Source: Natrinema ejinorense (GTDB lineage Archaea > Halobacteriota > Halobacteria > Halobacteriales > Natrialbaceae). From it: 64,000 nucleotides of DNA. Shown piece after piece: positions 6,709 through 62,785 of the stretch (positions are counted from its first letter, which is position 1; the number at the start of each line of letters is the position of its first letter). Both the position numbers and the translations under genes were made by a program. Where the stretch lies: assembly GCF_002494345.1 (NCBI RefSeq), contig NZ_NXNI01000001.1:3286001-3350000 (forward strand), in the 5' to 3' direction. The notes beneath the pieces are model-generated. The model did no database searches and had not been told where the DNA came from. It saw only the letters and a program-made list of their open reading frames with translations.

Positions 6709-6745
6709 GCCGCTCCCTCGTCGCACTCGGTAGTTGCCCGGTGGT

Positions 6746-6757: not shown

Positions 6758-6784
6758 TTCTTTCTCCTGGACCCGTGCGAACCG

Positions 6785-7381: not shown

Positions 7382-7519
7382 ACCTCGACTAGGCTCCGAA
7401 GAGTGAAAATCCTTTACTCTCCGTCCCGCCTGCATCGCTCCCTCGAGCGAGCCGGTCGCGAACGCGGGACGAGCACACGCGAACGAAGGGCTTACCCTCG
7501 CCACGTGCGTCGCTCCGAT

Positions 7520-9169: not shown

Positions 9170-9251
9170 CGCTCGGCTCCCTACCGGCCGAACCCGCCGC
9201 ATCGCCAAACTACCACAGCGTTTATGTTTCTTCAGTGGATTGCGTTTCGAC

Positions 9252-10055
9252 ATGGCCAGTCTCAGGGATCTCGGGCTTTCCGAGTACGAAGCTCGAGCCT
9301 ACCGATCGTTGCTCACTACCGGCCCCACAACGGCCAAGGAGTTGTCCCGGGCGAGCGACGTCCCGATGGGGCGGATCTACGACGTGTTAAACAGTATCGA
9401 ACAGTACAACCTGGTCCGGAGCCAGACCGCGAGCCGCCCGAAGAAGTACGTCGCCGTCGAGCCCTCGACGGCGCTCGACCGGTTGCTCGAGGACAAGAAA
9501 CGCGAACTCGAGGAAAAGGCCGATCAGTACGAGTCGATCGTCGACGACCTCGCCGACGAACTCGACGCCGCCGAGCCGGTCGAAGAACAGTTCTGGACCG
9601 CCGCCGTCGGTCCCGAGGAGACGATCGATCTCCTCTTGGAGCGGCTGGCGGCCGCCGATCGGGACATCGTAATGGTGTCGTCACACCCTTCGCCCCAGTG
9701 GGACATGCAGGCGGTCAGCGAGGAGATCAACGCCCAACTCGAGGACGCGCTCGATCGTGGGGTTTCGGTCGATCTGTTGATGACTCGCGAGATGGTCGCT
9801 TCCATGTCGGAGGAGGTGGGGCGGCGCTATCGGGAGACCTTACAGCAACGCGACGACTTCGACGTCCGTACGCACGACGACGTCACGGGGTCGTTCAACC
9901 TCATCGACGGCGTCGAGGTGTGTATCCAGGTGCCCAACCCGCTGTCCTCGGGCGAGGCCTTCGGCATGATCGACCTGAAGGATCCGGAGTTCGCCGCGAA
10001 CGTCCACGAGGAGTTCGTTCCGCGCTGGGAACAGGCCGAGCCCCTCGAGTTTTAG
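9252..10055 (+). CDS. TrmB-family transcriptional regulator
   Basis: Encodes 267 residues. The N-terminal winged helix-turn-helix (LGLSEYEARAYRSLLTTGPTTAKELSRASDVPMGRIYDVLNSIE, abbreviated here as the segment from residue 6 to about 50) is characteristic of TrmB regulators. A charged coiled-coil linker follows (LLEDKKRELEEKADQYESIV), then a phospholipase D-like fold segment with FWTAAVGPEETIDLLLERL. The C-terminal ligand domain of sugar-binding TrmBs is not evident, so the effector cannot be named. It may control itself or distant operons. The ATG at 9252 was preferred over an earlier in-frame start four codons upstream because it gives MASLRDLGLSEYEARAY. Confidence 0.88.
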   Translation: MASLRDLGLSEYEARAYRSLLTTGPTTAKELSRASDVPMGRIYDVLNSIEQYNLVRSQTASRPKKYVAVEPSTALDRLLEDKKRELEEKADQYESIVDDLADELDAAEPVEEQFWTAAVGPEETIDLLLERLAAADRDIVMVSSHPSPQWDMQAVSEEINAQLEDALDRGVSVDLLMTREMVASMSEEVGRRYRETLQQRDDFDVRTHDDVTGSFNLIDGVEVCIQVPNPLSSGEAFGMIDLKDPEFAANVHEEFVPRWEQAEPLEF

Positions 10056-10135
10056 TGACGGTCCACGGCTGCACTGGGGGGTCGAATCCGGCGATCTGAT
10101 CCCCGCCGACCCTGCAGTCGACGGGTAGAAGGGGA

Positions 10136-11062
10136 CTAGTTGTCGATCTCGTCGCGGAGCGTCCCCATTTCGACGATCCGCTCGGCGTGGGCGTTGTGCT
10201 GGTGGATCGATTCGTCGTTGGACTGGCTCATCGTGATTACCGCGTCGTCGGCCAGGTGATCGAACTCGTCGACGACGCCTTCCGCCAGCGCACGGACGCA
10301 GTCCTCGACGAACTTCGCGTCGGCGTGGGCGTCGTACGTCATGTAGTCCTCGTCGGGCCGCTTCGCGAGGTTGTAGATCCGCGCGCTCATCGAGTCCCGA
10401 GCGATATCGATGATGTCGTTCAGATCGACCGACGGGTCGCCGTTGGCTTCGACGGTCAGCGTCGCGTGCCCCCGCTGGGAGTGGCCCGGCTGTGGCACTT
10501 CCTCGAGGAACGCCGTGATCGTCTCCTCCTCGACGCCCAGGTCCTCGAGCGTCTGCTTCGCGCGGGCCGTCGACATGCCCTGCGAGCAGGGGCAGACGGT
10601 CATGCCGGTGACCCGTGCACCGATCTCCTCGCGGGTGCCGTCCTCGGTCGCCGTCGCGGACGCGACGATGTCGACGGTATGTTGGGTCTCGCGATCGCTG
10701 GCAGGGGTCTGTTCGCGCCGCATGAACTCGGCCTCCATCGAGACCTCCGCCCGCGACGTGTAATCGTGGCGCTCGAGGAGCCGTTCGGCGGCCTCGCCAC
10801 AGACCTCCTCGACGCCGTAGGCCTCCTCGCGGGTGGCGTCCTCCAGGATCTCGTCGATGACTTCCATGTTGCGGCTCATGTCCGCGCCCTTGCGCCAGCC
10901 GGGAAGATCGACGAAGACCTCGAACTCGGCAGTGAGAACGATCGGCCGCTTCCCCTCGCGGGCGATCTTGACGAGCTTGTCGACGCCGGTGACGCCGACC
11001 TGGCTCAGGCCGACAGTGACGTCGGGTGACGTCGCCTGCACGTCCGGCAACTGATGACTCAT
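10136..11062 (-). CDS. mptA: GTP cyclohydrolase MptA (type IV)
   Basis: Encodes 308 residues of the FolE2/MptA family, which convert GTP to a 7,8-dihydroneopterin 2',3'-cyclic phosphate, the first step of archaeal pterin (methanopterin or folate-type) synthesis. Recognisable features are [20 protein letters not shown] at the N-terminus, [14 protein letters not shown] with the conserved cysteine that binds the catalytic metal, [17 protein letters not shown] with the metal-binding histidine, and [14 protein letters not shown] near the end. Haloarchaea lack FolE, and MptA supplies tetrahydrofolate. The gene stands alone. The start MSHQLPDV was chosen over an ATG three codons upstream. Confidence 0.95.
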
Positions 11063-11071
11063 TGCCCGCAT

Positions 11072-11503
11072 TCAGGGGAGCGATCGATTCAACCTTTCGG
11101 AACCAGTAGTTGTTGGCTCGACGGACCCGATAGTACCGCTGCCGTCTCGAGCGGGTCGTCGTTTCTTTAAGTGGTTCCCGTCACAAGGTGGAGCTATGAC
11201 GGGACGAGCGCCGTTCTCTAGTGCGCCAATTCGGTAGTTGCGACGCGTTCGTTCTCGAGAGTCGACTGTATCCCGCTCGCGAACGGTTCGAAGATCGGTT
11301 GAGGCCGGAATACAGTAGTCACTGAACATTCGATCGCACGACGGGATTGCACTTAGTGTAAATCGTTTCGGTGGCTACGATCCCTTTCTTGCGGGACAGC
11401 CGACCGCTCCGGCGGGACTGCGGTTTTCTCGCGCGAGTAAACTTACGGACCGTCGAAGAGTCGCTTTCAGGTCACCTAAGGCCCCGGGGTGCTAGCAGGA
11501 CGT
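11072..11503. other. Gene-free gap between mptA and the site-2 protease gene
   Basis: No credible gene is seen on either strand. The gap holds copy A of the 39-bp element (11166-11204). The sequence ACTTAGTGTAAATCG near 11350 and GTAAACTTACGG near 11437 are possible TATA regions, but none is at leaderless spacing from the downstream start. Confidence 0.5.
11166..11204 (+). repeat. 39-bp promoter-like element, copy A
   Basis: Begins with the TATA-like TTTAAGT and continues through a conserved block close to GTCACAAGGTGGAGCTA. It matches copies B, C and D at most positions and has the same orientation. Its downstream bases do not stay open in any shared frame, so the conservation is not coding. 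Confidence 0.7.
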
Positions 11504-12643
11504 GTGCGAAGCTACACTATCACGGAGATCTGGGATATCCCCATTCGGATCAACACCTCGTTGCTGATCTTCCTCCCGATCCTCGCGTGGCTCATCGGAA
11601 GCGGCCAGCAGATCGAACTGTACGCCGGGTTCATCGAAGGATTCACCGGCACGGGATTCGACCTCATCAGGCTCCGAGCCGGGGCGATGCCGTGGCTCAT
11701 CGGTATCACGGCGGCAGTCGGCTTGTTCGTGAGCGTTACCCTACACGAACTCGGCCACTCGTGGGCCGCACTGCGATATGGCATCGAAATCGATTCGATC
11801 ACCCTGTGGATCCTCGGTGGAATAGCATCGCTGAAGACGTTCCCGAAGGAGTGGGACCGGGAGTTCTGGATCGCCATCGCCGGCCCCATCACGAGCGTCC
11901 TCATCGCCGCCGTCTGCTATGCAGGCGTGCTCGTCGCGCCGACCTCCCTCCACGCGGTGCGGTTCGTCGTCGGCTATCTGGCGGTCACGAACCTGCTACT
12001 GGCAGGATTCAACCTCCTTCCCGCGTTCCCGATGGACGGCGGACGGATCTTCCGTGCCCTCCTGGCTCGTTCCCGTCCGTACGGCACCGCAACGCGAATC
12101 GCGGCGCGGGTCGGGGTCGCGTTTGCGTTCCTGTTCGCCCTCGTCGGCGTCTTCACCTTCCAGCTCATCCTCCTCCTGCTCGCCTTCTTCATCTACGGAG
12201 CCGCGACGACGGAATCGCGATCGGTGCTCCTCGACGAACTGCTCGAGGGAATCACGGTCGGAGACATCATGACCAGGGATCCCCCGACGGTCTCGGCCGA
12301 CACGACGGTCGAGGAGTTCGGCGACCAGCTGCTTCGCGACCGGCGGTCGATCCATCTGGTTACGGATGATACCGGGACCGGCATCGGCGTCGTCACGCTC
12401 GCGGACCTCCGCACGGCTCGCGGCAACGACCGCGGGACGACCCGCATCGAGGACGTAATGGAGGCTGTGTCCCGCATCGAGTCGACCGCCGACGCCTTCG
12501 AGACGCTGGCCGTTCTGAACCAGACGGGGAGCGCGAACGCACTGGTCGAGGAGAACGGCGAACTCGTCGGCGTGCTCTCGAAAGCCGATTACGCACATGC
12601 CATAACGGTTCGACGTGGCTTCGGGAGTGAGGTCGCGGGGTAG
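11504..12643 (+). CDS. Site-2 protease family (M50) membrane metalloprotease with CBS domains
   Basis: Encodes 379 residues from the GTG at 11504 (MRSYTITEIWDIPIRINTS). Membrane spans alternate through the first ~235 residues. The zinc site is VTLHELGHSWAALRYGIEI (HExxH near residue 84), and the third ligand is in NLLPAFPMDGGRIFRALLA. After the membrane part, two CBS domains follow: GITVGDIMTRDPPTVSADT and TRIEDVMEAVSRIES...ALVEENGELVGVLSKADY. Such proteases cut transmembrane substrates; CBS domains usually bind adenine nucleotides and may regulate activity. The substrate is unknown. A GTG five codons upstream is an alternative start. Confidence 0.9.
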   Translation: MRSYTITEIWDIPIRINTSLLIFLPILAWLIGSGQQIELYAGFIEGFTGTGFDLIRLRAGAMPWLIGITAAVGLFVSVTLHELGHSWAALRYGIEIDSITLWILGGIASLKTFPKEWDREFWIAIAGPITSVLIAAVCYAGVLVAPTSLHAVRFVVGYLAVTNLLLAGFNLLPAFPMDGGRIFRALLARSRPYGTATRIAARVGVAFAFLFALVGVFTFQLILLLLAFFIYGAATTESRSVLLDELLEGITVGDIMTRDPPTVSADTTVEEFGDQLLRDRRSIHLVTDDTGTGIGVVTLADLRTARGNDRGTTRIEDVMEAVSRIESTADAFETLAVLNQTGSANALVEENGELVGVLSKADYAHAITVRRGFGSEVAG

Positions 12644-12699
12644 CCCACTCGCAGGGGCGACAACTGTGAACTCACGTAACAGCGCCGTCCGGATCGTTC

Positions 12700-12738
12700 T
12701 TTAAGTGTCTCCCGTTACAAGGTGAAGCTACGAAGGGC
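12700..12738 (+). repeat. 39-bp promoter-like element, copy B
   Basis: TTTAAGT followed by the block ending GGTGAAGCTACGAAGGGC, 52 bases before the start of the RlaP-type gene. It lies where the promoter of that gene would be expected if the mRNA has a leader of about 60 bases. Confidence 0.7.
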
Positions 12739-12789
12739 ATTTGGCACGCCGGCGTTCTCTCGTCTCCGTTCCACACTCGAGCCACAGCC

Positions 12790-13710
12790 ATGGCCACTGT
12801 TCCCCCACGCATCCACGAAACGGTCGACGACCACCTGCGGGCGATCGAACGTACGTACGACGTCGCGGTCGCCGTCGCGGTCGCCCGCGGGAGCCACGCC
12901 TGGGGCGGGGCGAGCCCCGACAGCGACTACGACGTCGGCTTCGTCTACGCGCCGACCGATCTGCGCCGATACGCCCACCTCGAGGATCCCCCCGAAACGA
13001 TCGTCGAGGACCGAGGCGAGTTCGAATATCAGGGCTGGGACGGACGGACGTTCGTCCGCCTGCTTTCCGAGTCGAACGAGAGTGCGATCGACCTGCTGCG
13101 GAGCCCGATCCGGTATCGACTCGCGTACGACCCCACCGACCTCGCCGACTACCTCGAGCGGACCTACAACCCGATCGACCTGTATCACACGTGGCGGGGC
13201 ATCGCGACGAGCAACTACCGCAAGTACATCTCCCAGCATCTGGTCCGCACCGACGACGAACTCTTCCCGATCGTCGACGCCGACGACGAGGCGTTCGTCG
13301 TCGAAACCGACGACGGAACGATGACGGTCCCGGCCGACGACGAGCGCTTCACCGAGACGCAAACGAAACCCACGGTGAAGCGAAATCTGACGATCTGTCG
13401 AGCGGCGATGTCCGCGTACTACCTCGAAGAAACCGGCGAGCGTGGCGACCACGAGTTGCCGGCGCTCGAGTTCGAGCGGTTCCTGGACGAGCAGGCACCG
13501 ACAGTCTTCGATCCCGAGCGGATCGAACGCGCTCGCGAGTTGCTCGAGCGGAAACGAAGGGGTGAGGGCGGGGTCCCGATCGGCGACGCCGTCGGCCGCG
13601 AGTTCGCTCACCCACCGAACCCGATCGACCCCGAAATTCACGCGAGAGCCGGCCCCGAGACCGAACGGCTGGACGAGTATCTCGACGAGTTACTCGCGGC
13701 CGTCCAGTAG
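12790..13710 (+). CDS. RlaP-type nucleotidyltransferase (DNA polymerase beta superfamily)
   Basis: Encodes 306 residues. The active-site motif GSHAWGGASPDSDYDVG near residue 35 has the GS...DxD pattern of the polymerase-beta nucleotidyltransferases, in the form typical of the RlaP family (PF10127), which is linked with RNA repair ligases in many bacteria. Further conserved points are SAIDLLRSPIRYR and YISQHLVR. No RNA ligase or partner gene is nearby here, so its substrate is unknown; transfer of a nucleotide to RNA is inferred from the family. Copy B of the 39-bp element lies upstream and copies C and D lie downstream. Confidence 0.85.
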   Translation: MATVPPRIHETVDDHLRAIERTYDVAVAVAVARGSHAWGGASPDSDYDVGFVYAPTDLRRYAHLEDPPETIVEDRGEFEYQGWDGRTFVRLLSESNESAIDLLRSPIRYRLAYDPTDLADYLERTYNPIDLYHTWRGIATSNYRKYISQHLVRTDDELFPIVDADDEAFVVETDDGTMTVPADDERFTETQTKPTVKRNLTICRAAMSAYYLEETGERGDHELPALEFERFLDEQAPTVFDPERIERARELLERKRRGEGGVPIGDAVGREFAHPPNPIDPEIHARAGPETERLDEYLDELLAAVQ

Positions 13711-13738
13711 CGACTCCGATCGTCGATCCGCGCATCCG

Positions 13739-13777
13739 TTTAAGTGCCTCTCGTCACAAGATGAAGCTACGACGGGA
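13739..13777 (+). repeat. 39-bp promoter-like element, copy C
   Basis: TTTAAGT, then the block with GTCACAAGATGAAGCTACGA, 28 bases after the stop of the RlaP-type gene. It is 138 bases ahead of copy D in the same orientation. Confidence 0.7.
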
Positions 13778-13876
13778 GAGACGCCCCGATTCTGGCGGGA
13801 GATTCAGTTCATTACAGCTCGGGCTGTCGGCAGCTCGACGCTGCTCGCTGGCTGGTCGTCCCTCGAGCGACCGTCG

Positions 13877-13915
13877 TTTAAGTACCTCTGGTCACAAGGT
13901 GAAGCTACGAAGGGC
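13877..13915 (+). repeat. 39-bp promoter-like element, copy D
   Basis: TTTAAGT followed by the block with GTCACAAGGTGAAGCTACGA and AGGGC. It lies 178 bases ahead of the RNA polymerase epsilon gene, and most of the 383-bp gap between 13710 and 14094 is made of copies C and D and their spacers. Confidence 0.7.
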
Positions 13916-14093
13916 TTTTCGCGGACGGACGGTCCCGGTCACGAAGTCGAACGTCGCCGATACCGGAGCGACAGCGCCCGTCCCGTTCGAGGTCGCCGTG
14001 GCACTCGTTCCTGTTAGAAACGTTGTGTGTCCGGTTTCCAAGGGTATTGCGCGGAGCGAGCCTTTTTTACTCTCCCTCTCCGAGCGACAGACG

Positions 14094-14858
14094 ATGCAAG
14101 ACGACGGTGCCGACCCGAGTCCCGATCCCGAGCGACCCGTTGGGGCTGCAGACGGCGTCGCCCCCGACGACGAGCGCCGCCTCGAGACCCGTCCGGGGTC
14201 CGGGTCGCTCTCGCGGGCGGACGTCCAGCGCGATTCGACGGTCCGCCGGTGGGGCGTCGTCACGCCGAGCGCGACGGTCATCGGCCGCGCGGAGTCGCCC
14301 GAGGGAGACCTCTCCGAGAGCGTGCGCCGCCTCCACGACGAACAGCACGCGGCGACGCCGGGCTACAGCGAGCGCGCCCACCGTCTCGACCGGCTGCGAA
14401 CCACGCAGGCGCTGTGTAACGCCCTCGAAGTGACGCCCTGGCAGCGCGATCTCGCGCTCGGCGTCATGGACGAGATCGACCTCACCGAGTTCGGGAGCCA
14501 GCGGGCGATTCCCAAGGTCGCACTGGTCGTGATCCGCCACGTCGTCGACGTCGATCGACAGCAATACTTCGGGCTCGACGAGATCGACGCGCAGGAACTC
14601 TCCGCCGACCGGATGGAGGACCTGTTCGCACAGTACCGGGCCCACGATATCACCGACGAAGAGCCGTTCAAGCGGCTCGCGGCCGAATACGGGCTGGATA
14701 CGACCAGCCTGAATCGCTTGCGCCGAGTCCTCAAATCCCAACTCGACGACGAGCTGCCGGCGTACGGTCACAACCCCTACCGGGATCCGAACCTGCCGGA
14801 CGTGACGGAGTCGAACACCGACAGTGCGAGCCGGGTAGCGACCGGATCCGAGAGCTGA
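14094..14858 (+). CDS. rpoeps: DNA-directed RNA polymerase subunit epsilon (haloarchaeal)
   Basis: Encodes 254 residues. The conserved core VRRWGVVTPSATVIGRAESP, then VRRLHDEQHAATPGYSER and RRLHD-type repeats, LCNALEVTPWQRDLALGVMDEIDLTEFGSQ, and ALVVIRHVVDVDRQQYFGLD are those of the subunit described as epsilon in halobacterial RNA polymerase. It is found only in Halobacteria, and its effect on transcription is poorly known. The frame is open further upstream through the repeat copies, but the ATG at 14094 follows a natural promoter space and gives the family N-terminus (MQDDGADPSP). Confidence 0.9.
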   Translation: MQDDGADPSPDPERPVGAADGVAPDDERRLETRPGSGSLSRADVQRDSTVRRWGVVTPSATVIGRAESPEGDLSESVRRLHDEQHAATPGYSERAHRLDRLRTTQALCNALEVTPWQRDLALGVMDEIDLTEFGSQRAIPKVALVVIRHVVDVDRQQYFGLDEIDAQELSADRMEDLFAQYRAHDITDEEPFKRLAAEYGLDTTSLNRLRRVLKSQLDDELPAYGHNPYRDPNLPDVTESNTDSASRVATGSES

Positions 14859-14964
14859 CCGCCCGGGGAACGACTACTCGAGTTGCGTCCGTGCCTCGTC
14901 TCGGTGGCGGCCGCTCGACTGCCGGTGACCGGCGACTTTTCCGTAACGGACACCTACCGAATCC

Positions 14965-15618
14965 ATGGCTGACGCCGATACCGGATCGACGCCGGAGACC
15001 GGGGATCGACTAACGATCTACGCGGACTACGTCTGTCCGTTCTGTTATCTGGGGACGCGCTCGCTCGAGCAGTACCGCGACGGTCGCGACGAGCCCCTCA
15101 CCGTCGAGTGGCATCCCTTCGACCTGCGACGCGGGAAGCGAAACCCGGACGGCTCGATCGATCACGACGTCGACGACGGGAAAGACGAGGGCTACTACGA
15201 GCAGGCCAAACAGAACGTCCGTCGGCTACAGGAGGAGTACGACGTCGAGATGACGCTGGATATCGCGACCGACATCGATTCGTTCGACGCGCAGGTCGCC
15301 TCGTGGTACGTCAACGGAGCGTATCCCGACCGCTGGGAGGCGTTCGACGAGGCGATCTACACGGCGCTGTGGCAGGAGGGACGCGACATCGGCGACGTCG
15401 AGGTACTCGCCGACCTCGCCGACGACGTCGACCTACCGGCCGACGAGATTCGGGAGGCGATCGCAGACGAGAGCCTCCAGGCCGAACTCGAGGAGCGATT
15501 CGCCCAGGCCCAGCAGACGGGAATCACCGGCGTCCCGACGTTCCTCTCGGACGGGCACGTCGCCCGCGGTGCGGTACCGCCGGAACACCTCGAGCGACTC
15601 GTGGAAGGCGACCAGTAA
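14965..15618 (+). CDS. DsbA family (FrnE-like) thiol oxidoreductase
   Basis: Encodes 217 residues. After a short acidic lead, LTIYADYVCPFCYLGTRSLE contains the redox CPFC motif near residue 24, the start of a thioredoxin fold. VEWHPFDLRRGKRNPDG and the C-terminal GITGVPTFLSDGHVARGAVPPEHLERL (cis-Pro in GVPTF) match the FrnE-like 2-hydroxychromene-2-carboxylate isomerase/DsbA group. No signal peptide is seen, so it is cytoplasmic. It may act in thiol-disulfide exchange under stress. Its stop and the stop of the convergent NAD kinase gene are immediately adjacent. Confidence 0.9.
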   Translation: MADADTGSTPETGDRLTIYADYVCPFCYLGTRSLEQYRDGRDEPLTVEWHPFDLRRGKRNPDGSIDHDVDDGKDEGYYEQAKQNVRRLQEEYDVEMTLDIATDIDSFDAQVASWYVNGAYPDRWEAFDEAIYTALWQEGRDIGDVEVLADLADDVDLPADEIREAIADESLQAELEERFAQAQQTGITGVPTFLSDGHVARGAVPPEHLERLVEGDQ

Positions 15619-16455
15619 CTATTCCAGCTTGTCGAGCGCGTCGAAGAAATTCCCCCGTGGGCCGACGAGCGTGACGGATTCGGCGGCGAGGGAGACCGAT
15701 ACCGTCGCCGGGGGCTCGAGGCGCTGTCGGTTGCGACCGTCGCTGATCACGTACGCGGTGTCGGTGTCGGAGACGGTGAGGGTGAGTTCGGTGTCCGGTT
15801 CGACGACCAGCGGCGGCATCGACTCGGTCGCGGCCATTTGCGTGACCACGAGGGTCTCCGCAGCCGGGTGGAGAAGTGGTCCTCCCTCGCTCAAGTTGTA
15901 GGCGGTCGAGCCCGTCGGCGTGGCCACGAGCACGCCGTCGGCGTGACTCTCGGCGTACTGCTGGCCGTCGACGCGGATCCCGACGGTCGCGCCGCCGCCG
16001 TTCCCCCGGCGGGGCCCGTGGACGACCACCTCGTTGAGGGCGGGCTCGAGCGTCCAGTCCTCGCCGACCCCGGTTGCCCGAAGCCGCGTCAGTTCGCGGC
16101 CCGCGACGGTTCCCGTTTCCTCGAGTTCGGTCACGAGAGCAGTGACGACGTCGACCGCGTCCGCGGGCGCGACGGCATTGAGAAAGCCGACTTCGCCGAG
16201 GTTGATGCCGAGGATCGGCGTCGAACCCACCTCGCGGGCCGTGAACAACAGCGTTCCATCACCGCCGATGCTCACGACGAGGTCACGACCCGCCATCGCA
16301 GCGACCGGGACGGTCGTCGCCTCGAGTGCCTCGCCGGTCGCTTCGTCGACGACGACGGTTGCCCCCTCGCGCTCGAGGGTCTCCACGAGGCTCCCGGCGA
16401 GTGTCTGTGCACGCTCGTTGTCACGCTGGGCGACGATTCCGACGGCAACGTCCAT
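15619..16455 (-). CDS. nadK: NAD kinase
   Basis: Encodes 278 residues; phosphorylates NAD to NADP. The diagnostic VVSIGGDGTLLFTAREV lies near residue 60, with GINLGEVGFLN following, LNEVVVHG near the middle, and SHADGVLVATPTGSTAYNLSEGGPLLHP carrying the second conserved nucleotide-binding motif. The start MDVAVGIVAQRDNERA ends at 16455; the frame stays open upstream but without family similarity. The gene converges on the DsbA-like gene with no spacer and is divergent from the KaiC-like gene. Confidence 0.94.
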   Translation of the reverse strand: MDVAVGIVAQRDNERAQTLAGSLVETLEREGATVVVDEATGEALEATTVPVAAMAGRDLVVSIGGDGTLLFTAREVGSTPILGINLGEVGFLNAVAPADAVDVVTALVTELEETGTVAGRELTRLRATGVGEDWTLEPALNEVVVHGPRRGNGGGATVGIRVDGQQYAESHADGVLVATPTGSTAYNLSEGGPLLHPAAETLVVTQMAATESMPPLVVEPDTELTLTVSDTDTAYVISDGRNRQRLEPPATVSVSLAAESVTLVGPRGNFFDALDKLE

Positions 16456-16686
16456 CGTCGGCGGATACCCGCCCCGTGATGAAAAAGCCACGCTTGTCCC
16501 GCCGACGGCAACAAAGTTAATCCGGTTGGAACGACTTCGGACACGTGAACTCCCGCGACGATCCCGTCGCAGTGTCACGTATGGCCTCCGTCTACTCGAA
16601 TTACCCCCGTCACGTCGCTGTCGTCACCAGCAGTCGGATCCGCCAGCGACGCTCGCCCAGGACCGGACCCACGCCGGGTGGTCGCC

Positions 16687-17751
16687 GTGAGTGACGACAC
16701 CGACGACTGGTTCGAACGGGCGCTCGAAGACGGGGAGACGGACGAGGAGCGAACGCCGCCGACACCCGAAGCCGAACCCACCGCTGGCGACGGTTCGGCA
16801 GGCGACGATGCCGGCGAACACGACGCTGACCCCGAGTCGAACTCGACACGGGAGGGGGATGTGGCGGAGACGACCGACGACGATGACCCCCTGTTCGAGG
16901 AGGAGTTCGGCGACGCGCTCCAGGACGTCGACGCCCCGACGACCGACGCTGTGGCCGATGGGGCGGCTACCAGCGGTCCCGAGGGGTTCGACGATCTCGA
17001 TTTCGTGTTCGGGGGGAGCGACGAACCCGACTTCGACGAGGCGATCGACTCCGAACTCTCGCGACTCGAACTCGGCATCGAGGGGCTCGATCGGATGATC
17101 CAGGGTGGCGTTCCCGAGCGGTCGCTCATCGTTACGATGGGCAGCGCCGGAACCGGCAAGACCACGTTCGGCCTCCAGTTTCTCACCCACGGACTCCAGC
17201 AGGGCGAGCGAGCGGTCTTCATCACGCTCGAGGAAAGCCGCGAGCGGGTCATCAACAGCGCAACCGAAAAAGGATACGCGTTCGACGAGTACGTCGCCGA
17301 CGGCCAACTCGCCGTCGTCGACGTCGATCCGATCGAGATGGCCAACAGTCTGGCCTCGATCCGGAACGAACTCCCCACGCTCGTCGAGGAGTTCGACGCC
17401 TCGCGGCTCGTCCTCGACTCGGTTTCCTTGCTCGAGATGATGTACAAGGATCGAGCGAAACGTCGCAACGAAATATACGATTTTTCCCGGAGTTTGAAGG
17501 AGGCAGGCGTCACCGCGTTGTTGACGAGCGAGGCATCCGAGGAGACCCCCTACGCCTCCCGATACGGCATCGTCGAGTATCTCACGGACGCCGTCTTCGT
17601 CCTCCAGTACGTCCGGCCGGACGACTTCCGGGAAACCCGGATGGCGATCGAGATTCAGAAGATCCGCGACGCCAACCACTCTCGAGAAAAGAAACCGTAC
17701 GAGATTACGGCCGACGGGATCTCCGTATATCAGCAAGCCAACCTGTTCTAG
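16687..17751 (+). CDS. KaiC-like RecA-superfamily ATPase (HTR-like protein)
   Basis: Encodes 354 residues. The first ~115 are a highly acidic, low-complexity region (TDEERTPPTPEAEPTAGDG and similar). A single KaiC/RadA-type ATPase domain follows, starting LGIEGLDRMIQGGVPERSLIV, with Walker A GSAGTGKTTF near residue 155, ITLEESRE, and Walker B-like SRLVLDSVSLLEMM. The catalytic Glu-Glu of circadian KaiC is seen in LEES. Family members signal or remodel partners. The archaellum protein ArlH is a relative, but no archaellum gene is nearby. GTG at 16678 is an alternative start; the one chosen gives MSDDTDDWFERALE. Confidence 0.82.
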   Translation: MSDDTDDWFERALEDGETDEERTPPTPEAEPTAGDGSAGDDAGEHDADPESNSTREGDVAETTDDDDPLFEEEFGDALQDVDAPTTDAVADGAATSGPEGFDDLDFVFGGSDEPDFDEAIDSELSRLELGIEGLDRMIQGGVPERSLIVTMGSAGTGKTTFGLQFLTHGLQQGERAVFITLEESRERVINSATEKGYAFDEYVADGQLAVVDVDPIEMANSLASIRNELPTLVEEFDASRLVLDSVSLLEMMYKDRAKRRNEIYDFSRSLKEAGVTALLTSEASEETPYASRYGIVEYLTDAVFVLQYVRPDDFRETRMAIEIQKIRDANHSREKKPYEITADGISVYQQANLF

Positions 17752-17883
17752 CGACCGGTCCCGCGTGGCCGTGACTCAACTGGGGAATCAGTCGTCCGTT
17801 ACAACAGCGGTTTCGGCAGTAACAACGGGTTAGGAACACGTTTGCAGCCCATACTTTTGCAGGCAGCTGTTCGATGTCCCCGC

Positions 17884-18123
17884 ATGGCGCAACGGACGAC
17901 AGCCGACGAGACGCTCCCTCGAGACGAACTCGCCGCCTACCTCCAGGAACTCGCGACGGAGTTCGGGCAAAGCGAGGCGGCAGTCACCGTGCCGGTCGGG
18001 AACAAGAACGTGTCGCTCGACCCGCCCCAGAACGTCGACGTCTCCGTCGAGGTCGTCGAACGCTCGTCGATGCTCCGGGGGAACCGTGAGACAGTCGAGA
18101 TCGAACTGAGCTGGAAACCCTAA
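17884..18123 (+). CDS. Amphi-Trp domain protein
   Basis: Encodes 79 residues. The sequence TTADETLPRDELAAYLQELA, VTVPVGNKNVSLDPPQNVDVSVEVV and the ending VEIELSWKP fit the amphi-Trp domain, named after a conserved C-terminal tryptophan in an amphipathic strand. Its function is unknown. The ATG at 17884 gives the family start (MAQRTTADE); an upstream in-frame ATG is less likely. A membrane protein gene follows after one base, so the two are probably co-transcribed. Confidence 0.8.
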   Translation: MAQRTTADETLPRDELAAYLQELATEFGQSEAAVTVPVGNKNVSLDPPQNVDVSVEVVERSSMLRGNRETVEIELSWKP

Positions 18124-18124
18124 C

Positions 18125-18487
18125 ATGGCTGCCGCCGACTCCGTCCTTATCTTCGTCCTGAGCCTGCTCGTGGGAACGATCGGCATTCTCGCAGGCGCGC
18201 GGCTGGTGTTAGACAGGGATGCGAGCGTCGTGAACGCGGCGGTGACCGCGCTGATCGGCGCGGTCGCCTGGGCGATTACGAGTTTCTTCGTCGGGTGGGT
18301 TCCTATCCTGGGCGTGCTGTTGATGTTGATCATCTGGGTCGGAGTCATCAACTGGCGCTATCCCGGCGGCTGGGGATCGGCGGTCGCGATCGGCTTCATC
18401 GCCTGGATCGTCGCGGTCGCGATCGTCTACGCCTTCGCCGTCGTCGGGTTCGTGACGCCCGACGCCCTCGGGATCCCGGGCGTCTAG
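18125..18487 (+). CDS. Small haloarchaeal membrane protein
   Basis: Encodes 120 residues, almost all hydrophobic, with about four membrane spans: SVLIFVLSLLVGTIGILAGA, NAAVTALIGAVAWAITSFFV, ILGVLLMLIIWVGVINW and AVAIGFIAWIVAVAIVYAFA. No catalytic motif is seen. It starts one base after the stop of the amphi-Trp gene, which indicates an operon. Function unknown; haloarchaeal genomes often carry such a protein. Confidence 0.75.
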   Translation: MAAADSVLIFVLSLLVGTIGILAGARLVLDRDASVVNAAVTALIGAVAWAITSFFVGWVPILGVLLMLIIWVGVINWRYPGGWGSAVAIGFIAWIVAVAIVYAFAVVGFVTPDALGIPGV

Positions 18488-18688
18488 GTATCCCAGGCGT
18501 CTGGGGCCTGCACGGTGACGGCGGTCGGCTCGAACCGAGAGGACACCTCGAGGGCAGGGTGAACCGGACCACAGCCGCCGTGATGCGCCAGACGTGGACC
18601 CGAGACGCGGTTCGACGCGATGTTCCCAGCCAGGGGAACGGAAGGAAACCCCTTTTTCCGTCCGGGCGAGTGGTCTACGTAGACAGCG

Positions 18689-19117
18689 ATGTACGAGACG
18701 ATCCTCTTTCCGACGGACGGCAGTGAGCACGCGGCGACCGTCGCGGACCACGCGATCGACGTCGCGGCCACCAGAAACGCAACCCTGCACGTCCTTTCGG
18801 TCGTCGACGACCGCGCGTTTCTCGTGCTCGACGACGACCGCATCGAGCGCGTCCGCGAGGACCTCGAGACCACCGCTCGCGAGGCCGTCGACGAGGCGGC
18901 GACGCGCGCTGCCGATCACGGCGTCGAGACGGTGACTGCCGTCGAAACCGGCCACCCCGCCGAGTGTATCGTCGATTACGCCGCGACCAACGGGACGGAT
19001 CTGATCGTCATGGGAACCAGCGGTGACGAGTACGAACGGAACGTCGTTGGAAGCGTCTCCCAACGGGTCGTCCGCGAGGCCCCCGTTCCCGTCACTACCG
19101 TCGGGCCCGGCGTTTGA
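18689..19117 (+). CDS. Universal stress protein (UspA family)
   Basis: Encodes 142 residues. It starts YETILFPTDGSEHAATVADHA, the usual first strand and loop of UspA, and ends with IVMGTSGDEYERNVVGSVSQ and REAPVPVTTVG. The GTSG and GS residues form the nucleotide-binding loop of ATP-binding Usp proteins, although the spacer between them is one residue shorter than the usual pattern. It probably acts as a cytoplasmic dimer in stress response. It stands alone; a 200-bp gap without visible features lies upstream. Confidence 0.93.
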   Translation: MYETILFPTDGSEHAATVADHAIDVAATRNATLHVLSVVDDRAFLVLDDDRIERVREDLETTAREAVDEAATRAADHGVETVTAVETGHPAECIVDYAATNGTDLIVMGTSGDEYERNVVGSVSQRVVREAPVPVTTVGPGV

Positions 19118-19240
19118 ATCGCCGCCCCCTCGAGACCCAAGGGACGACGATGCGATCGGTCGAGACCGTCCCCTCCCGGAGGAACGCGTATCGTCTCGGG
19201 AAGGTAGTTTGATGTATTCCCTGCCGCTAGCTATGGATAG

Positions 19241-20776
19241 ATGCGCCGCTCGATCGTAATCACGGTCGTTTTGCTCGTTCTCGCGTTCTTGCTCGTCGGA
19301 GGGCCGTCGCTGCTGGTGTCGTTGTCGGCCGACCAGACCGCACCCGCCACGACGACCCAGACCGAGACGAAACCGACACCGAAGCTCGTCTCGCTCGAGG
19401 ATTCCGAAAGCCGCTTCTGGCAGTATCTCAGCGCACGGGAAGGGTTCAAGCGGACGAGTCCGATCAACGTCGTCGTCCGCGGCGACACCGACGACGTCGA
19501 GCGGGTCCTGACCGACGCCGACGACGGCGACTGGTCCGAGATCAACGAATCGGAGGAGGAAGCACTCCCGGATACCTACTCGCTTACCGGCGGGAACGAA
19601 TCAGACAACGAAACCGAGCCGACTAGCGGTACCGAATCCGATAACGAAACCGAGCCGACCGACGATAACGAATCCGACAGCGAAATCGAAGCGATCGACG
19701 AAGGCGGCACCGAACCAGTGCCGAACAACTCGTCGACGAACGCCACCGACGACGCGCCGCCGGACGAACCGCAGGGTCCCGCACCGAATCTCGACTGGGG
19801 GCAGGCCGACGGCGGCACTCGCTATGCGTACGTCGACCCTGGTCCGAACGAAAGCGGCTACTGGACGACCGAAACGCGCCAACTCGAGGACGGCGACTAC
19901 TACGGACAGCGATACCACATTCGGCTCTACGAGAGCCCCAACGAGGACGACGACTGGGTCATCATGCAGACGCACTCGGAACACTTCGACTGGTTTACGC
20001 TCCGTCACCGCGTCCACGGCTCACAGGACGCCCAGACGAAAGTCGAGAACGACTTCATGGAACACCCGCGAGTCGACGTCCAAGAGGACGTCCACCGCAT
20101 GTATCTCGACAACAGGAACTCCGCCGACGCCGACGGCTGGGCGACCGTCGTCGAACTCGCCGGGCTGGTGGTCGTTCCGACGATAGTCGGGGCCCGAACC
20201 CGCAGACGCCACACCAGCGGCCCCACCGAGACCGGAGAGTCCGCGAGCGAACGCGTCGCCCAGGGAACAGCCGCTGCGATCGACGACCACCTGACCGACG
20301 TCGATCGCCGCCGGCTGGCCGCCGCCTACGCCCGCCTCGAGGCCGGCCACGTCCTCCTCGTCTTTACGATCCTGGCGCTCTATCTCGGCGTTCGAATGGG
20401 TGGGCTCGCCCTCGAGCGCCAGGCCGGGTTTCTGACGCCACACCAGATCGCCGCGTTGTTGTACCCAGTGATCGGGATCGGAATTCCGGCCGCAACCTAC
20501 CTTCTCGCGCGCGGACTCACGCGACGCCTCGACGCCGCCGTCGTCGCCGCCGGCTCGCTCGCGGTCGCGATCTGGCTCGACTACAGCCTGCTCGGCGTCG
20601 ACACGCTTCCGGTGGATGTCGTCCTCCAACGGATGCTCGTCGTCGTTGCACTCGGCCTGATCGCCGCCGGCGCTGCCAAACGAGCCACCCGGCGGTCGAA
20701 ATTCAACGATATGCTGCTCGTCGGCACGGTCATGTGGGTGCTCGTACTGGTCGGAACGCTCTTCGGGTACGTTTGA
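19241..20776 (+). CDS. Large haloarchaeal membrane protein with 12-residue repeats
   Basis: Encodes 511 residues. An N-terminal membrane anchor (IVITVVLLVLAFLLVGGPSLL) is followed by an external region of about 300 residues. At residues ~119-155 three 12-residue repeats rich in Asn, Glu, Ser and Thr occur (patterns NESDNETEPT and TESDNETEPT), with N-glycosylation-like NET sites. A soluble domain follows (LDWGQADGGTRYAYVDPGPN, EDDDWVIMQTHSEHFDWFTL, HPRVDVQEDVHRMYLD). The C-terminal ~150 residues contain about four spans (VLLVFTILALYLGV, ALLYPVIGIGIPAATYLLA, VLQRMLVVVALGLIAAGAA, VGTVMWVLVLVGTLFG). I do not recognise a function. Confidence 0.75.
   Translation: MRRSIVITVVLLVLAFLLVGGPSLLVSLSADQTAPATTTQTETKPTPKLVSLEDSESRFWQYLSAREGFKRTSPINVVVRGDTDDVERVLTDADDGDWSEINESEEEALPDTYSLTGGNESDNETEPTSGTESDNETEPTDDNESDSEIEAIDEGGTEPVPNNSSTNATDDAPPDEPQGPAPNLDWGQADGGTRYAYVDPGPNESGYWTTETRQLEDGDYYGQRYHIRLYESPNEDDDWVIMQTHSEHFDWFTLRHRVHGSQDAQTKVENDFMEHPRVDVQEDVHRMYLDNRNSADADGWATVVELAGLVVVPTIVGARTRRRHTSGPTETGESASERVAQGTAAAIDDHLTDVDRRRLAAAYARLEAGHVLLVFTILALYLGVRMGGLALERQAGFLTPHQIAALLYPVIGIGIPAATYLLARGLTRRLDAAVVAAGSLAVAIWLDYSLLGVDTLPVDVVLQRMLVVVALGLIAAGAAKRATRRSKFNDMLLVGTVMWVLVLVGTLFGYV
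19597..19704 (+). repeat. Three 36-bp in-frame repeats inside the membrane protein gene
   Basis: Three consecutive 36-bp units begin AACGAATCAGACAACG, ACCGAATCCGATAACG and AACGAATCCGACAGCG. They keep the reading frame and encode the NESDNETEPT-type linker, so copy number could change without breaking the gene. Confidence 0.6.
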
Positions 20777-20877
20777 AATCGTCCGGTACGTTTGAAACCC
20801 GTCCACGAGGATTCGGTCCTCCTCGAGATCGTCGTTCTCCCTCGAAATCGTTGTTTCCCCTCGAGATCGTCTTTGTC
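20766..20877 (+). repeat. 19-bp-period direct repeats between the membrane gene and tfb
   Basis: GGTACGTTTGAAA occurs at 20766 and 20785 (period 19). Three further 19-bp units at 20821, 20840 and 20859 begin CCTCGAGATCG, CCTCGAAATCG and CCTCGAGATCG. The first unit overlaps the end of the upstream gene. The array lies about 100 bases ahead of the tfb start. Confidence 0.65.
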
Positions 20878-20941
20878 GGCCGGGAAGCCGGAATATGGGA
20901 TCGGAGCGATCGATTCGGGCGCGTGTCTTCGGTGGCGAGTC

Positions 20942-20947
20942 CTTAAG
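20942..20947 (+). promoter_or_regulatory. TATA-like box of tfb
   Basis: CTTAAG lies 27 bases before the ATG at 20975, consistent with a leaderless or very short-leader transcript, and supports that start codon. Confidence 0.5.
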
Positions 20948-20974
20948 TCCTTGGAACATCGTTATCAACATGAA

Positions 20975-21940
20975 ATGGCAAGCCCCACCCGTCAGCGCGA
21001 ACGCGATCCTGAAACGACAACCAAAACACAGGAGTCGGAGCGTGAACGGGTGTGTGACGAGTGTGAGAGCGGAACGCTCGTCAAAAGCGAAGACCAGGGC
21101 GAACTCGTTTGCGATCAGTGTGGACTCATCGTCGAACAGGCAAACATCGACCACGGGCCCGAGTGGCGTGCGTTCAACCACTCCGAACGCCAGAACAAGT
21201 CCCGCGTGGGCGCGCCGACGACCCAGACGATGCACGACAAGGGGCTGACGACATCGATCGACTGGAAGAACCAGGACGCCTACGGTCGGTCGATCTCCTC
21301 GGACAAACGCAATCAGATGCGCCGCCTGCGAAAGTGGCAAGAGCGCATCCGAACCAAAGACGCCGGCGAACGGAACCTCCAGTTCGCACTCTCCGAGACC
21401 GACCGGATGGCCTCCTCGCTGGCGATCCCACGATCCGTCCGCGAAGTCGCCTGCGTCATCTACCGGCGCGCACTCGACGAAGACCTCATCCGCGGCCGCT
21501 CGATCGAAGGCGTCGCGACCAGTACGCTCTACGCCGCCTGTCGCATGGAAGGCATCCCCCGATCGCTCGAGGAAGTCGCCGCGGTCTCACGGGTCGAACG
21601 CAAGGAGATCGGCCGCACCTATCGCTACGTCGCCCAGGAGCTCAACCTCGAGATGGAGCCGGTCAACCCGAAGAAGTACGTGCCCCGGTTTTGTTCGGAA
21701 CTCGAACTCTCCGAGGAAGTTCAGGTGAAAGCGAACGAGATCATCGATACGACGACCGAGAAAGGACTGCTCTCGGGGAAGTCGCCGACCGGCTACGCCG
21801 CCGCGGCGATCTACGCTGCCTCGTTGCTCTGTAACGAAAAGAAGACCCAGCGCGAGGTGTCTGATGTCGCACAGGTGACGGAAGTAACCATTCGGAACCG
21901 GTATCAGGAACAGATCGAAGCGATGGGCATTCACGATTGA
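20975..21940 (+). CDS. tfb: Transcription initiation factor TFB
   Basis: Archaeal TFIIB homologue that bridges TBP at the TATA box and RNA polymerase. It has 321 residues. The N-terminal zinc ribbon is [10 protein letters not shown]...[12 protein letters not shown] (CxxC...CxxC). The B-finger/reader region follows ([35 protein letters not shown]). Two cyclin-like repeats make up the rest ([22 protein letters not shown] and [18 protein letters not shown]; then [20 protein letters not shown] and [19 protein letters not shown]). Haloarchaea carry several TFBs with different target sets. It points towards the replication origin, occupying the side where an orc1/cdc6 gene is usual. Confidence 0.96.
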
Positions 21941-22340
21941 TCCCCACTGCAAGAGTGACGGAGAACTGCCGGACTGGAACGGAATGAGCGCAGTGGGAGC
22001 GTAGGCGCGCGGTTTTCGGCCTCGTTTTATTATCGATCCGCCACAGAATGTCACTCTGCTATAAACTCGGGATCGCGTAAGTTCCGTCGTCGGGAGAAGG
22101 TACAGTCAGTTCGGGTCACTACAGATCAGTCGGATCGTACGAGAACGCGGAAATCGCGATGAGGGGGAGTCACAGTATCACGTTATTGAATGACGTGTGG
22201 TATGAAATAGCGTGTGTCAGTGGCATAGCGTGTGTCAGTAGCGTGTGGTGAGATAGTGTGGTGAGACATCACATGGTGCGTGTTGTTCAATCTCGAGTGT
22301 GGGTGCGTTTGACGGATCGTGGGATATCGAGACTCTCCCC

Positions 22341-22366
22341 CCCCCCACCCCTTCGTTTCAAGTGGA
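22341..22366 (-). promoter_or_regulatory. Origin recognition box, left (minus orientation)
   Basis: On the minus strand this reads TCCACTTGAAACGAAGGGG followed by TGGGGGG. It matches the archaeal ORB core (TCCA...GAAAC...AAGGGG) plus the haloarchaeal G-tract. It is a perfect inverted copy of 22685-22710. Orc1/Cdc6 proteins would bind here. Confidence 0.8.
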
Positions 22367-22404
22367 ACGCGTCACAGAGGTGGGTGGGGGTTCGATGGCG
22401 TTTT

Positions 22405-22560
22405 CGGATGGGAAGTTTTATTTCTATGGCAAGGAAACAGTATCCGCAGAACTAGCAGACTGAATTACTTTACTAGGGTATTGTTTGTGTTTACTAGTTC
22501 CTACTAGAACTACTTCTCTTAGCTGTCTAGGTTGCTAGACTCGTATCTATATTGCTAGAA
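22405..22560. other. AT-rich core between origin boxes (probable unwinding element)
   Basis: This is one of the most AT-rich stretches of the window, with seven CTAG tetranucleotides between 22452 and 22558, often in TACTAG or GCTAG contexts. CTAG is normally scarce in archaeal genomes. Its position between inverted ORBs fits a DNA-unwinding element. Confidence 0.65.
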
Positions 22561-22607
22561 CGATCGCTATCGGTGAATTCGCCGCCGAAATCACCCTGAA
22601 ACCCGCC

Positions 22608-22629
22608 TCGAGTCGAAACGGAGGGCTGG
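22608..22629 (+). promoter_or_regulatory. Degenerate origin recognition box-like site
   Basis: TCGAGTCGAAACGGAGGGCTGG matches the two strong boxes at about 17 of 22 positions, including GAAACG, and has the same orientation as the right-hand box. It may be a weaker (mini-ORB) site. Confidence 0.4.
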
Positions 22630-22684
22630 ACTCCCCTCGATCGGGACCGTTCATTCCATTTCTTCACCCACTCCCTCGTGAGTC

Positions 22685-22710
22685 TCCACTTGAAACGAAG
22701 GGGTGGGGGG
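22685..22710 (+). promoter_or_regulatory. Origin recognition box, right (plus orientation)
   Basis: TCCACTTGAAACGAAGGGG followed by TGGGGGG. It is identical over 26 bases to the reverse complement of the left-hand box, and the G-tract points towards oapA. Confidence 0.8.
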
Positions 22711-22941
22711 TCTCGGAACACGCACAGCCGTTCTCTATCAATATGATATTATTTAACATGGCGTGTGGTCTTCTGATACGGTATAGCATACGATACATCG
22801 TATCCTGATACACGTTCTCGCCCAGCTATCGCAACCAGCTATCGTTTCGTCTCTGGTACTCCGATCCGTCTTACAGATTCGAGGACAGTAACCGCCGATA
22901 CTAATTCGTTGTCGTCGGATATTCTATACGTCTGACGTAGG

Positions 22942-22947
22942 CTTAAG
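22942..22947 (+). promoter_or_regulatory. TATA-like box of the oap operon
   Basis: CTTAAG lies 56 bases ahead of the oapA start, leaving room for a leader of about 30 bases. GGAGGG just before the start codon can serve as a ribosome binding site, and GCACC/GGTGC in the leader can form a small hairpin. Confidence 0.45.
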
Positions 22948-23003
22948 TGGGTACAGTTTGTAGTACGCGCAGATGCACCCCGCGGTGCTGGAGGGCCCAA
23001 TAG

Positions 23004-23642
23004 ATGGGACTGTTCACAGAACTCAAAGATAGTATCTCTCGGGCTACGGATCGCCTGTTTTCGGAACAGGAGCCCAAACGAATCGGTATCTACGGTCCGC
23101 CCAATGCTGGCAAAACGACGCTCGCAAACCGTATTGCTCGTGACTGGACCGGTGATGCAGTGGGTGCGGAGAGTCACGTCCCCCACGAAACGCGTCGTGC
23201 ACGGAGGAAGGAAAACGTCGAGATCGAACGGAACGGCAAGACGGTGACTATCGACATCGTCGACACGCCCGGCGTGACGACGAAAGTCGACTACGAAGAG
23301 TTCACCGACGAGATGGACAAAGAGGACGCCATCCGCCGTTCCCGCGAAGCGACCGAGGGGGTCGCCGAGGCGATGCACTGGCTCCGAGAAGACGTCGACG
23401 GCGTCATCTATGTTCTGGATAGCGCGGAGGATCCGATTACGCAGGTCAACACCATGTTGATCGGCATCATCGAGTCCCGCGAGCTCCCCGTTTTGATCTT
23501 CGCGAACAAGATCGACCTCGAGGAATCGAGCGTCAAGCGGATCGAGGACGCTTTCCCACAGCACAAGACCGTCCCTCTCTCGGCGAAGGAAGGCGAGAAC
23601 ATGGACGAAGTGTACGACAACATCGCGGAGTACTTCGGGTGA
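23004..23642 (+). CDS. oapA: Origin-associated Era-like GTPase OapA
   Basis: Encodes 212 residues. GTPase motifs are clear: G1 GIYGPPNAGKTTLANRIARD near residue 27, G3 DIVDTPGVTTKVDYEEF near residue 90, G4 IFANKIDLEESS near residue 163, and G5 PLSAKEGENMDEVYDNIAEY. The fold resembles Era-type GTPases without the KH RNA-binding domain. The gene stands next to the origin in many Halobacteria and is there called oapA; a link to replication comes from location and from work on the locus in Haloferax volcanii. It overlaps or abuts the next gene by a few bases, so the three oap genes are one operon. Confidence 0.88.
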   Translation: MGLFTELKDSISRATDRLFSEQEPKRIGIYGPPNAGKTTLANRIARDWTGDAVGAESHVPHETRRARRKENVEIERNGKTVTIDIVDTPGVTTKVDYEEFTDEMDKEDAIRRSREATEGVAEAMHWLREDVDGVIYVLDSAEDPITQVNTMLIGIIESRELPVLIFANKIDLEESSVKRIEDAFPQHKTVPLSAKEGENMDEVYDNIAEYFG

Positions 23643-23647: not shown

Positions 23648-24049
23648 ATGCCAAAAGCAACCAACGCGGACGACTCGGATGCACCCGACGGCGTACAGAT
23701 CGACCTGATCAGCGGCGAGCGCATGGACGGAATGGCGACGATGGAGAAGATCAGGATGATCCTCGACGGCGTCCACGACGGCAACATCGTCATCCTGGAG
23801 GAAGGTCTGACGCCCGACGAGGAGAGCCGGCTCATCGAGGTCACGATGGCCGAAATCAGCCCCGACGAGTTCAACGGCATCGAGATCGAGACCTATCCCA
23901 AGTCCGAGACCAGAGATTCGTCCCTCCTTGGCCGTATCATGGGGAGCGACGCCGGGGAGGCGAAGCTGACGGTGATCGGTCCTGCCAATCAGATCGAGAC
24001 GCTCCACAAGGACGAAACGCTCATCAGCGCGCTCGTGTCCCGTAACTAA
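23648..24049 (+). CDS. oapB: Origin-associated DUF2073 protein OapB
   Basis: Encodes 133 residues of the DUF2073 family (IDLISGERMDGMATMEKIRMILD, ILEEGLTPDEESRLIEVTM, FNGIEIETYPK, LTVIGPANQIETLHKDETLIS). The family is limited to Halobacteria and relatives, and its biochemical role is unknown. It lies between oapA and oapC with start/stop overlaps on both sides, which suggests translational coupling and a shared role at the origin. A GTG at 23639, overlapping the oapA stop, is an alternative start. Confidence 0.88.
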   Translation: MPKATNADDSDAPDGVQIDLISGERMDGMATMEKIRMILDGVHDGNIVILEEGLTPDEESRLIEVTMAEISPDEFNGIEIETYPKSETRDSSLLGRIMGSDAGEAKLTVIGPANQIETLHKDETLISALVSRN

Positions 24050-24909
24050 TGCCACATCAGTGTACGAACTGCGGCCGAACGTTCGCCGACGGCTCCAAGG
24101 AGATGCTGTCGGGGTGTCCCGACTGTGGCGGGAACAAGTTCCAGTTCGCGCCGCCGACGGCCGCAGCCGAATCGTCCACCGGATCCGCGGACTCGGGAGC
24201 GGTCGATACGGCGAATCCATCAGCGGAGGCTCCCGCTTCGGAGTCGGACAGCGTCACGACGCGCGCCGCGGAGACGGTTCGTGATTGGGTGTCCGCTGAA
24301 TCCTCTCCGGCTTCCGACGACTCGAGCGGGCCGGGCGACTCGAGCACGACGCCGGAGGGAGGGTTCGACGAGTGGCCCGAGACGGCACGCCGACCCGCCG
24401 ATCGAGCTGGCTCTTCGGACGAGACGGCCAGTGACTCCTCGAGTGGGACCGAGACCGACGACCGAGCGGAATTCGACGGAAGCGACGACCGAGCGGAAGC
24501 AGAGTGGTCGACACGGTCCGATCGTGAGACGACCGCGACGATGGCGACCGACGAGAACTCGGCCCAAGCGGACGCCCGCAGCGACGTCGTTCCCGCGGAC
24601 GATCTGCCATCTCACGCCGGCGATGCCGACGGGAGCGTCGACGATACCGACGGGAGTGACGATCCCGACCAGCCGCCGGAGCACGGCCGCGTCGTCAGCG
24701 AACCCAGCGGTCAGCGACCGTCGATCGAAGAACTGCGTGCGGAACTCAACGAACAGTTCGAGAGCATCAAGATCGTCAGGCCGGGACAGTACGAGCTCAA
24801 TTTAATGGAACTCTACAACCGCGACGAGTACATCATCTCGCTGCAAGAAGACGGCCGGTACGTCATCGACGTCCCGGATTCCTGGCACGGCGACGACGGC
24901 GACGAGTAA
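24049..24909 (+). CDS. oapC: Origin-associated zinc-ribbon protein OapC
   Basis: Encodes 286 residues in three parts. Residues 1-37 form a zinc ribbon (CTNCGRTFADGSKEMLSGCPDCGG). Residues ~38-225 are a disordered, Ser/Asp/Glu-rich linker. The conserved C-terminal ~65 residues read PSIEELRAELNEQFESIKIV, RPGQYELNLMELYNRDEYII and GRYVIDVPDSW. The start codon overlaps the oapB stop (TAATG). The conserved C-terminal segment and the zinc ribbon are typical of OapC. It probably binds nucleic acid or a partner protein; the exact function is unknown. Confidence 0.87.
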   Translation: MPHQCTNCGRTFADGSKEMLSGCPDCGGNKFQFAPPTAAAESSTGSADSGAVDTANPSAEAPASESDSVTTRAAETVRDWVSAESSPASDDSSGPGDSSTTPEGGFDEWPETARRPADRAGSSDETASDSSSGTETDDRAEFDGSDDRAEAEWSTRSDRETTATMATDENSAQADARSDVVPADDLPSHAGDADGSVDDTDGSDDPDQPPEHGRVVSEPSGQRPSIEELRAELNEQFESIKIVRPGQYELNLMELYNRDEYIISLQEDGRYVIDVPDSWHGDDGDE

Positions 24910-62776: not shown

Positions 62777-62785
62777 TGTCGTCGG

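Follow-up and report, generated by a model that had tools for sequence, protein, structure and literature searches.

In Natrinema ejinorense, the locus between tfb and oapA is best explained as the haloarchaeal oriC1, the core of which (the ORBs and the AT-rich interior) has been kept while its initiator gene, orc1, lies at a distance. That oriC1 and its initiator gene lie apart is real and holds at the level of the species. Comparison of sequence and gene order makes it quite likely, moreover, that oriC1 was cut from orc1 by a local rearrangement and is now an active origin served in trans by the distant Orc1. The DNA analysed here, called the window, is a stretch of 64,000 nucleotides (C1:3286001-3350000) of a chromosome of 3,988,345 bp in a genome of 4.48 Mb; positions given without a contig are those of the window.

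The origin core between tfb and oapA

The gap from the tfb stop (21940) to the oapA start (23004) measures 1063 bp, exactly positions 21941-23003. Its features and those of its surroundings are given below, where G061 is another genome of the species, assembled independently, and G010 is the genome used as the ancestral-layout reference for synteny.

6617-21936, +: transplanted block, equal to G010:C1:3449076-3463869, its end coinciding with the tfb stop; in most Natrinema it lies ~350-475 kb from oriC1
20975-21940, +: tfb, TFIIB-family transcription factor (Pfam TFIIB/zinc ribbon), reading towards the origin; 3' end of the moved 15-kb block
21941-22340, no strand: junction spacer between tfb and the left ORB, not conserved; 178-bp indel relative to G061
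22341-22366, -: left ORB with extended G-string, G tract outward; counterpart in relatives' intergenes
22379-22392, +: G-rich element directly inside the left ORB (GGTGGGTGGGGGTT), half of an imperfect inner inverted repeat
22391-22590, no strand: AT-rich interior, probable unwinding element, from its AT content
22665-22677, -: G-rich element directly inside the right ORB (CACCCACTCCCTC), the other half of the imperfect repeat
22685-22710, +: right ORB with extended G-string, from the inverted-repeat search and the comparison with G061
22911-23003, +: conserved oapA 5' region, 92/93 identical in G061 and ~85-93% identical over ~70-100 bp in most Natrinema
22912-56584, +: right chromosome arm from oapA onwards, its order ancestral, collinear with G010:C1:3076477-3106077
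23004-23642, +: oapA (= arvA, vesiculation GTPase), a small GTPase by domain search (PMC10927574)
23648-24049, +: oapB (= arvB), Pfam OapB, 2.4e-42
24049-24909, +: oapC (= arvC), Pfam OapC, 2.5e-29

The two ORBs form a 26-nt inverted repeat whose arms (CCCCCCACCCCTTCGTTTCAAGTGGA / TCCACTTGAAACGAAGGGGTGGGGGG) stand 318 nt apart and are 100% complementary, and the perfect inverted pair of ORB-like sites with outward G-tracts described in the first-pass annotation is thereby confirmed. The AT-rich core and the oapA-oapB-oapC cluster on one side, also described there, were recovered as well, with an AT content of 0.54-0.62 per 50-bp bin over ~22391-22590 against ~0.36 around it, and with Pfam matches for OapB and OapC. 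In 100 dinucleotide-shuffled versions of the window there was no match at all to the 25-nt arm at <=3 mismatches, and a search of the whole 4.48-Mb genome with the ORB 20-mer, likewise at <=3 mismatches, returned the two origin arms and no third match.

The hallmarks of oriC1 that are present include two inverted oriC1-type ORBs with extended G-strings, an AT-rich region between them, syntenic oapABC, and a gene for the cognate oriC1-type Orc1 elsewhere in the genome. An adjacent orc1/cdc6 gene of the oriC1 family, which also belongs to the definition (Wu et al. 2012, PMC3528665), is missing. Because the cognate orc1 is 160 kb away, the locus is termed an orthologous oriC1 variant rather than a typical cdc6-adjacent member. 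With the oriC1-cdc6A of Haloarcula hispanica and the oriC1-orc1 of Haloferax it shares the inverted ORBs with halophile G-strings, the AT-rich interior, oapABC on one side and a cognate Orc1 on the same chromosome, and possibly the inner G-rich repeat, of which two imperfect candidate halves (22379-22392 and 22665-22677) were picked by eye; it differs from them in that tfb occupies the place of the initiator gene. In H. hispanica oriC1 the inner G-rich inverted repeat is an enhancer and not essential, and some species have only half of it (PMC3936714). The presence of oapA itself is no evidence for a replication function, because OapA is ArvA, a vesiculation GTPase (PMC10927574).

The distant initiator gene and the rearrangement

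An intact oriC1-type orc1 encoding 589 aa was located at C1:3467671-3469440 (-), ~160 kb to the right of oapA and convergent to it. Its product carries Cdc6_C and AAA domains (domain search) and is 77-88% identical to the oriC1-adjacent Orc1 of relatives in the same family, while its own paralogues reach only ~36-44% identity to it. The genome holds ~12 Orc/Cdc6 homologues by the TIGR02928 profile; none of them lies within the window, and the nearest to oapA in the genome is this one. The earlier observation that an adjacent orc1/cdc6 is lacking and that tfb stands there, reading towards the origin, is therefore correct. Of the two explanations it offered, that orc1 had moved or that a rearrangement had joined tfb to the origin, both turned out to be true, with a separate rearrangement bringing tfb.

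In relatives, the orc1-oapA intergene consists, in order, of a conserved orc1 5' region (the first 165-193 bp), an unconserved spacer, an ORB, the interior, the second ORB and the oapA promoter. In N. ejinorense the first part of this intergene lies beside orc1, which took along ~170-190 bp of its own 5' region (~76-83% identical to that of most Natrinema), and everything from the left ORB onwards lies beside oapA; the break thus lies within the spacer, and the core is undivided. The rearrangement separated the orc1 promoter from the left ORB: the core, comprising both ORBs, the AT-rich interior and the oapA promoter, stayed with oapABC, and the block ending in tfb now occupies the place of orc1.

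Comparison with G010 shows a mosaic of moved pieces. The stretch at 3308.9-3447.2 kb corresponds to the right arm with its order kept, bar one 23-kb stretch (window 56584-64000 and on to C1:3365809) that lacks a counterpart in the portion of G010 compared and is a possible insertion. The stretch at 3292.6-3307.9 kb is the block ending at the tfb stop, which in G010 is ~385 kb from oapA, and that at 3463.7-3469.6 kb (~6 kb) is a polD1-sec11-sec11-orc1 block, now placed in what is the nmd3-htpX intergene of relatives. Around this last block lie an htpX block in inverted orientation, an ABC-transporter block that in G010 is at 3309 kb, 150 bp of the nmd3-htpX intergene, and sufS. To judge from gene order, several nested inversions or transpositions are needed to lead from the G010 arrangement to the present one. 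A single simple inversion is ruled out, as oapA(+) ... orc1(-) keeps both strands. Excision and reintegration of a 160-kb circle was dropped, since G010 shows the right arm in place and only the ~6-kb orc1 block and other small blocks moved. Crossing-over within an ORB is ruled out by the nmd3-type flanks on both sides of the ORB near orc1. The second genome, G061, is a single contig ~95% identical to the present one; it is collinear across both new junctions, shares the order tfb-origin-oapA and has orc1 at 1725491-1727257 (97% identical).

The first-pass annotation had called a separation of origin and initiator unusual for this lineage, and the survey agrees. The orc1 gene lies beside oriC1/oapA in all 27 other Natrinema species, two of them counted via a join across circular contig ends. 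Eighty named haloarchaeal oapA loci were surveyed, and among the 76 with enough upstream DNA to be assessed, orc1 is beside oapA in 73. Nor is tfb a customary neighbour of the origin, which would have spoken against a rearrangement: in Natrinema with both genes on one contig it is ~150-570 kb from oapA and never adjoins it.

The exceptions take other forms. Saliphagus has kept the inverted ORB pair next to orc1, with oapABC in another place; in Salinarchaeum there are weaker ORB-like sites on the flanks of orc1, and by oapA none was found. Halovivax asiaticus (L254:3893-10001) resembles N. ejinorense in having the origin by oapA with orc1 not immediately adjacent, but there orc1-sec11-polD1 has been flipped in place, so that polD1 rather than orc1 faces oriC1 and orc1 is ~4-5 kb from the origin. 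Among genomes in which orc1 is not near oapA, three (G034, G039 and G040) keep the ORB pair with orc1, and in a fourth (G032) a recognisable ORB pair was found on neither side. In relatives with a split, orc1 and the ORB pair thus appear mostly to travel together. An intact ORB pair with oapABC and a distant orc1 is found only in this species among those surveyed, and no description of an oriC1 without an adjacent orc1 was found in the open-access literature.

Proposed service of the origin from a distance

The two genomes that carry the split, the present one (G000) and G061, allow conservation after the separation to be compared across the locus. The ORBs are 25/26 and 25/25 identical (50/51 in all), one G of the G-run being absent from G061, and the 318-bp interior (22367-22684) is identical at 294 of 318 positions (92%) with no gaps. 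The left spacer is identical at 189/222 positions (85%) and bears the 178-bp indel, and the stretch from the right ORB to the oapA 5' region at 156/200 (78%). Because the core is more conserved than its flanks, selection on the core is likely to have continued after the split, and the core is probably in use to this day, served by Orc1 in trans. Orc1 made at the new site would diffuse to the inverted ORBs, open the AT-rich core and load MCM as usual, and the origin would in this way work in trans and still fire.

Published experiments bear on this proposal in both directions. The H. hispanica origins oriC2, oriC6 and oriC7, which were tested on plasmids lacking cdc6, support replication with Cdc6 from elsewhere, which was reported to be consistent with H. 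volcanii, but the chromosomal origins of H. hispanica depend on co-located cdc6 genes (PMC3936714). As trans supply works on plasmids, while on the chromosome each origin needs its own cdc6, a functioning orphan origin is plausible, not guaranteed. In Natrinema sp. J7, a predicted origin without adjacent cdc6 (oriC10/pFJ6), in this respect like the present locus, replicates as an episome; it is a different predicted origin, however, as the J7 counterpart of the present locus is the insert of pFJ2 (PMC5350488). The forward primer of pFJ2 lies in oapA, with 0-3 mismatches in Natrinema members, and this homologous fragment carrying oriC1 and orc1 gave no transformants (PMC5350488). The pFJ2 result, the dependence on cdc6 and the confinement of the published trans tests to plasmids weaken the case for service in trans. 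As for local GC skew, no clear inflection was seen at the origin over the 344 kb read, and the ordinary oriC1 of G010 shows none either, so that this measure is uninformative.

It is also possible, if improbable, that oriC1 is dormant or decaying, other cdc6-adjacent origins having taken over after orc1 left and the ORBs surviving as relics or as ballast that binds Orc1. Haloferax mediterranei is known to have dormant origins (PMC4595724), and on the N. ejinorense chromosome ORB-like repeats stand beside other orc/cdc6 genes at 2.25 and 3.98 Mb, with an inverted pair at 1.26 Mb as well. Yet between the two genomes sharing the split the ORBs, G-strings and AT core show no interior indels, while the flanks have diverged. 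If oriC1 is served in trans, the same orc/cdc6 genes could have buffered a transient loss.

Far less probable is a new origin at the present site of orc1, with the old core reduced to an accessory role. Two ORB cores 98 bp apart (L093:7927 and 8025) do lie 0.5-0.6 kb 5' of orc1 and are shared by G061; they are a pre-existing pair of the nmd3 type, found upstream of nmd3 in relatives. However, both point in the same direction, no AT-rich stretch surrounds them (AT ~0.28-0.42), and they lack the extended G-string; ORBs and G-strings are essential for H. hispanica oriC1 (PMC3936714). That there is no origin at all, and that the inverted repeat serves solely to regulate tfb or oapA, is scarcely credible: the same core motif does occur single or paired upstream of other genes, but the gap is the orthologue of an orc1-oapA intergene that is found throughout the genus and has the same interior and the same pair of ORBs with G-strings. 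Finally, an assembly misjoin beside tfb has next to no chance of being the cause, even though the region is pieced together from moved blocks, as misassemblies can be; G061, a genome assembled separately into one contig, is collinear through both junctions, and misassembly is therefore rejected.

ORBs outside the origin

ORB cores are not confined to oriC1. The 13-mer GAAACGAAGGGGT occurs 3-7 times per genome in 29 Natrinema genomes, and a reversed-pattern control gave 0 occurrences in all of them. The recurrent extra-origin sites match the origin ORB over up to 20 bp and lack the extended G-string. A single core precedes the start of a gene for a rhodanese-domain lipoprotein by 71-74 bp in all nine Natrinema genomes checked, at the following sites.

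C1:3366016: rhodanese-promoter ORB of the present genome
L379:1503, L201:6901, L370:1561, L377:1533: rhodanese-promoter ORBs of relatives
L380:1491, L382:1536, L375:1565, L381:1504: further rhodanese-promoter ORBs of relatives

This site is ~25-38 kb from oriC1 in most genomes and 57 kb in the present one, where the 23-kb stretch without counterpart lies between. Upstream of nmd3, ~105-125 kb from oriC1 in most, there are one or two cores at ~125-140 and 225-240 bp, in the same orientation; the spacing of the pair, ~97 bp (G010, L205:9204 and 9302), is kept in most Natrinema. An exact or one-mismatch site, single or paired, was found upstream of nmd3 in 4/9 scanned genomes of other genera of the family, representing four genera, and in 0/16 scanned beyond these.

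Further ORB-like sequences were noted in and around the orc1 block. A degenerate site lies ~14 bp upstream of the orc1 start (L093:7454), at the same fixed place in most Natrinema scanned, and is possibly autoregulatory. An inverted pair 64 bp apart lies inside the coding sequence of polD1 (PolD small subunit; L184:14951/15015, L199:10666/10730, L369:5425/5489), and one more ORB-like word is inside the linker coding sequence of orc1. A core at window position 13551, inside a coding frame, was taken as chance.

H. hispanica oriC2D likewise has ORBs outside the origin proper, and its cluster has been read as Cdc6 titration (PMC3936714); there, 11 ORBs lie by cdc6E, whereas here they are single or paired in promoters tens of kb away. 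In addition, a non-initiator Orc1-2 is reported to be a global regulator of expression (PMC9738581). It is conceivable, though doubtful, that the boxes on the oapA-side arm, in the rhodanese and nmd3 promoters, titrate Orc1 or place these genes under Orc1 control, and that the relocated orc1 is autoregulated by its adjoining box while oriC1 fires in trans.

Few features of archaeal (and bacterial) chromosome layout are as conserved as an initiator gene beside its origin. N. ejinorense offers a natural case in which the binding sites of the primary origin are kept and the initiator is far away, and, set against its close relatives, it makes it possible to test whether adjacency matters for dosage, timing or specificity. 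Conserved ORBs outside the origin would add an archaeal parallel to the initiator-titrating or initiator-regulated sites of bacteria.
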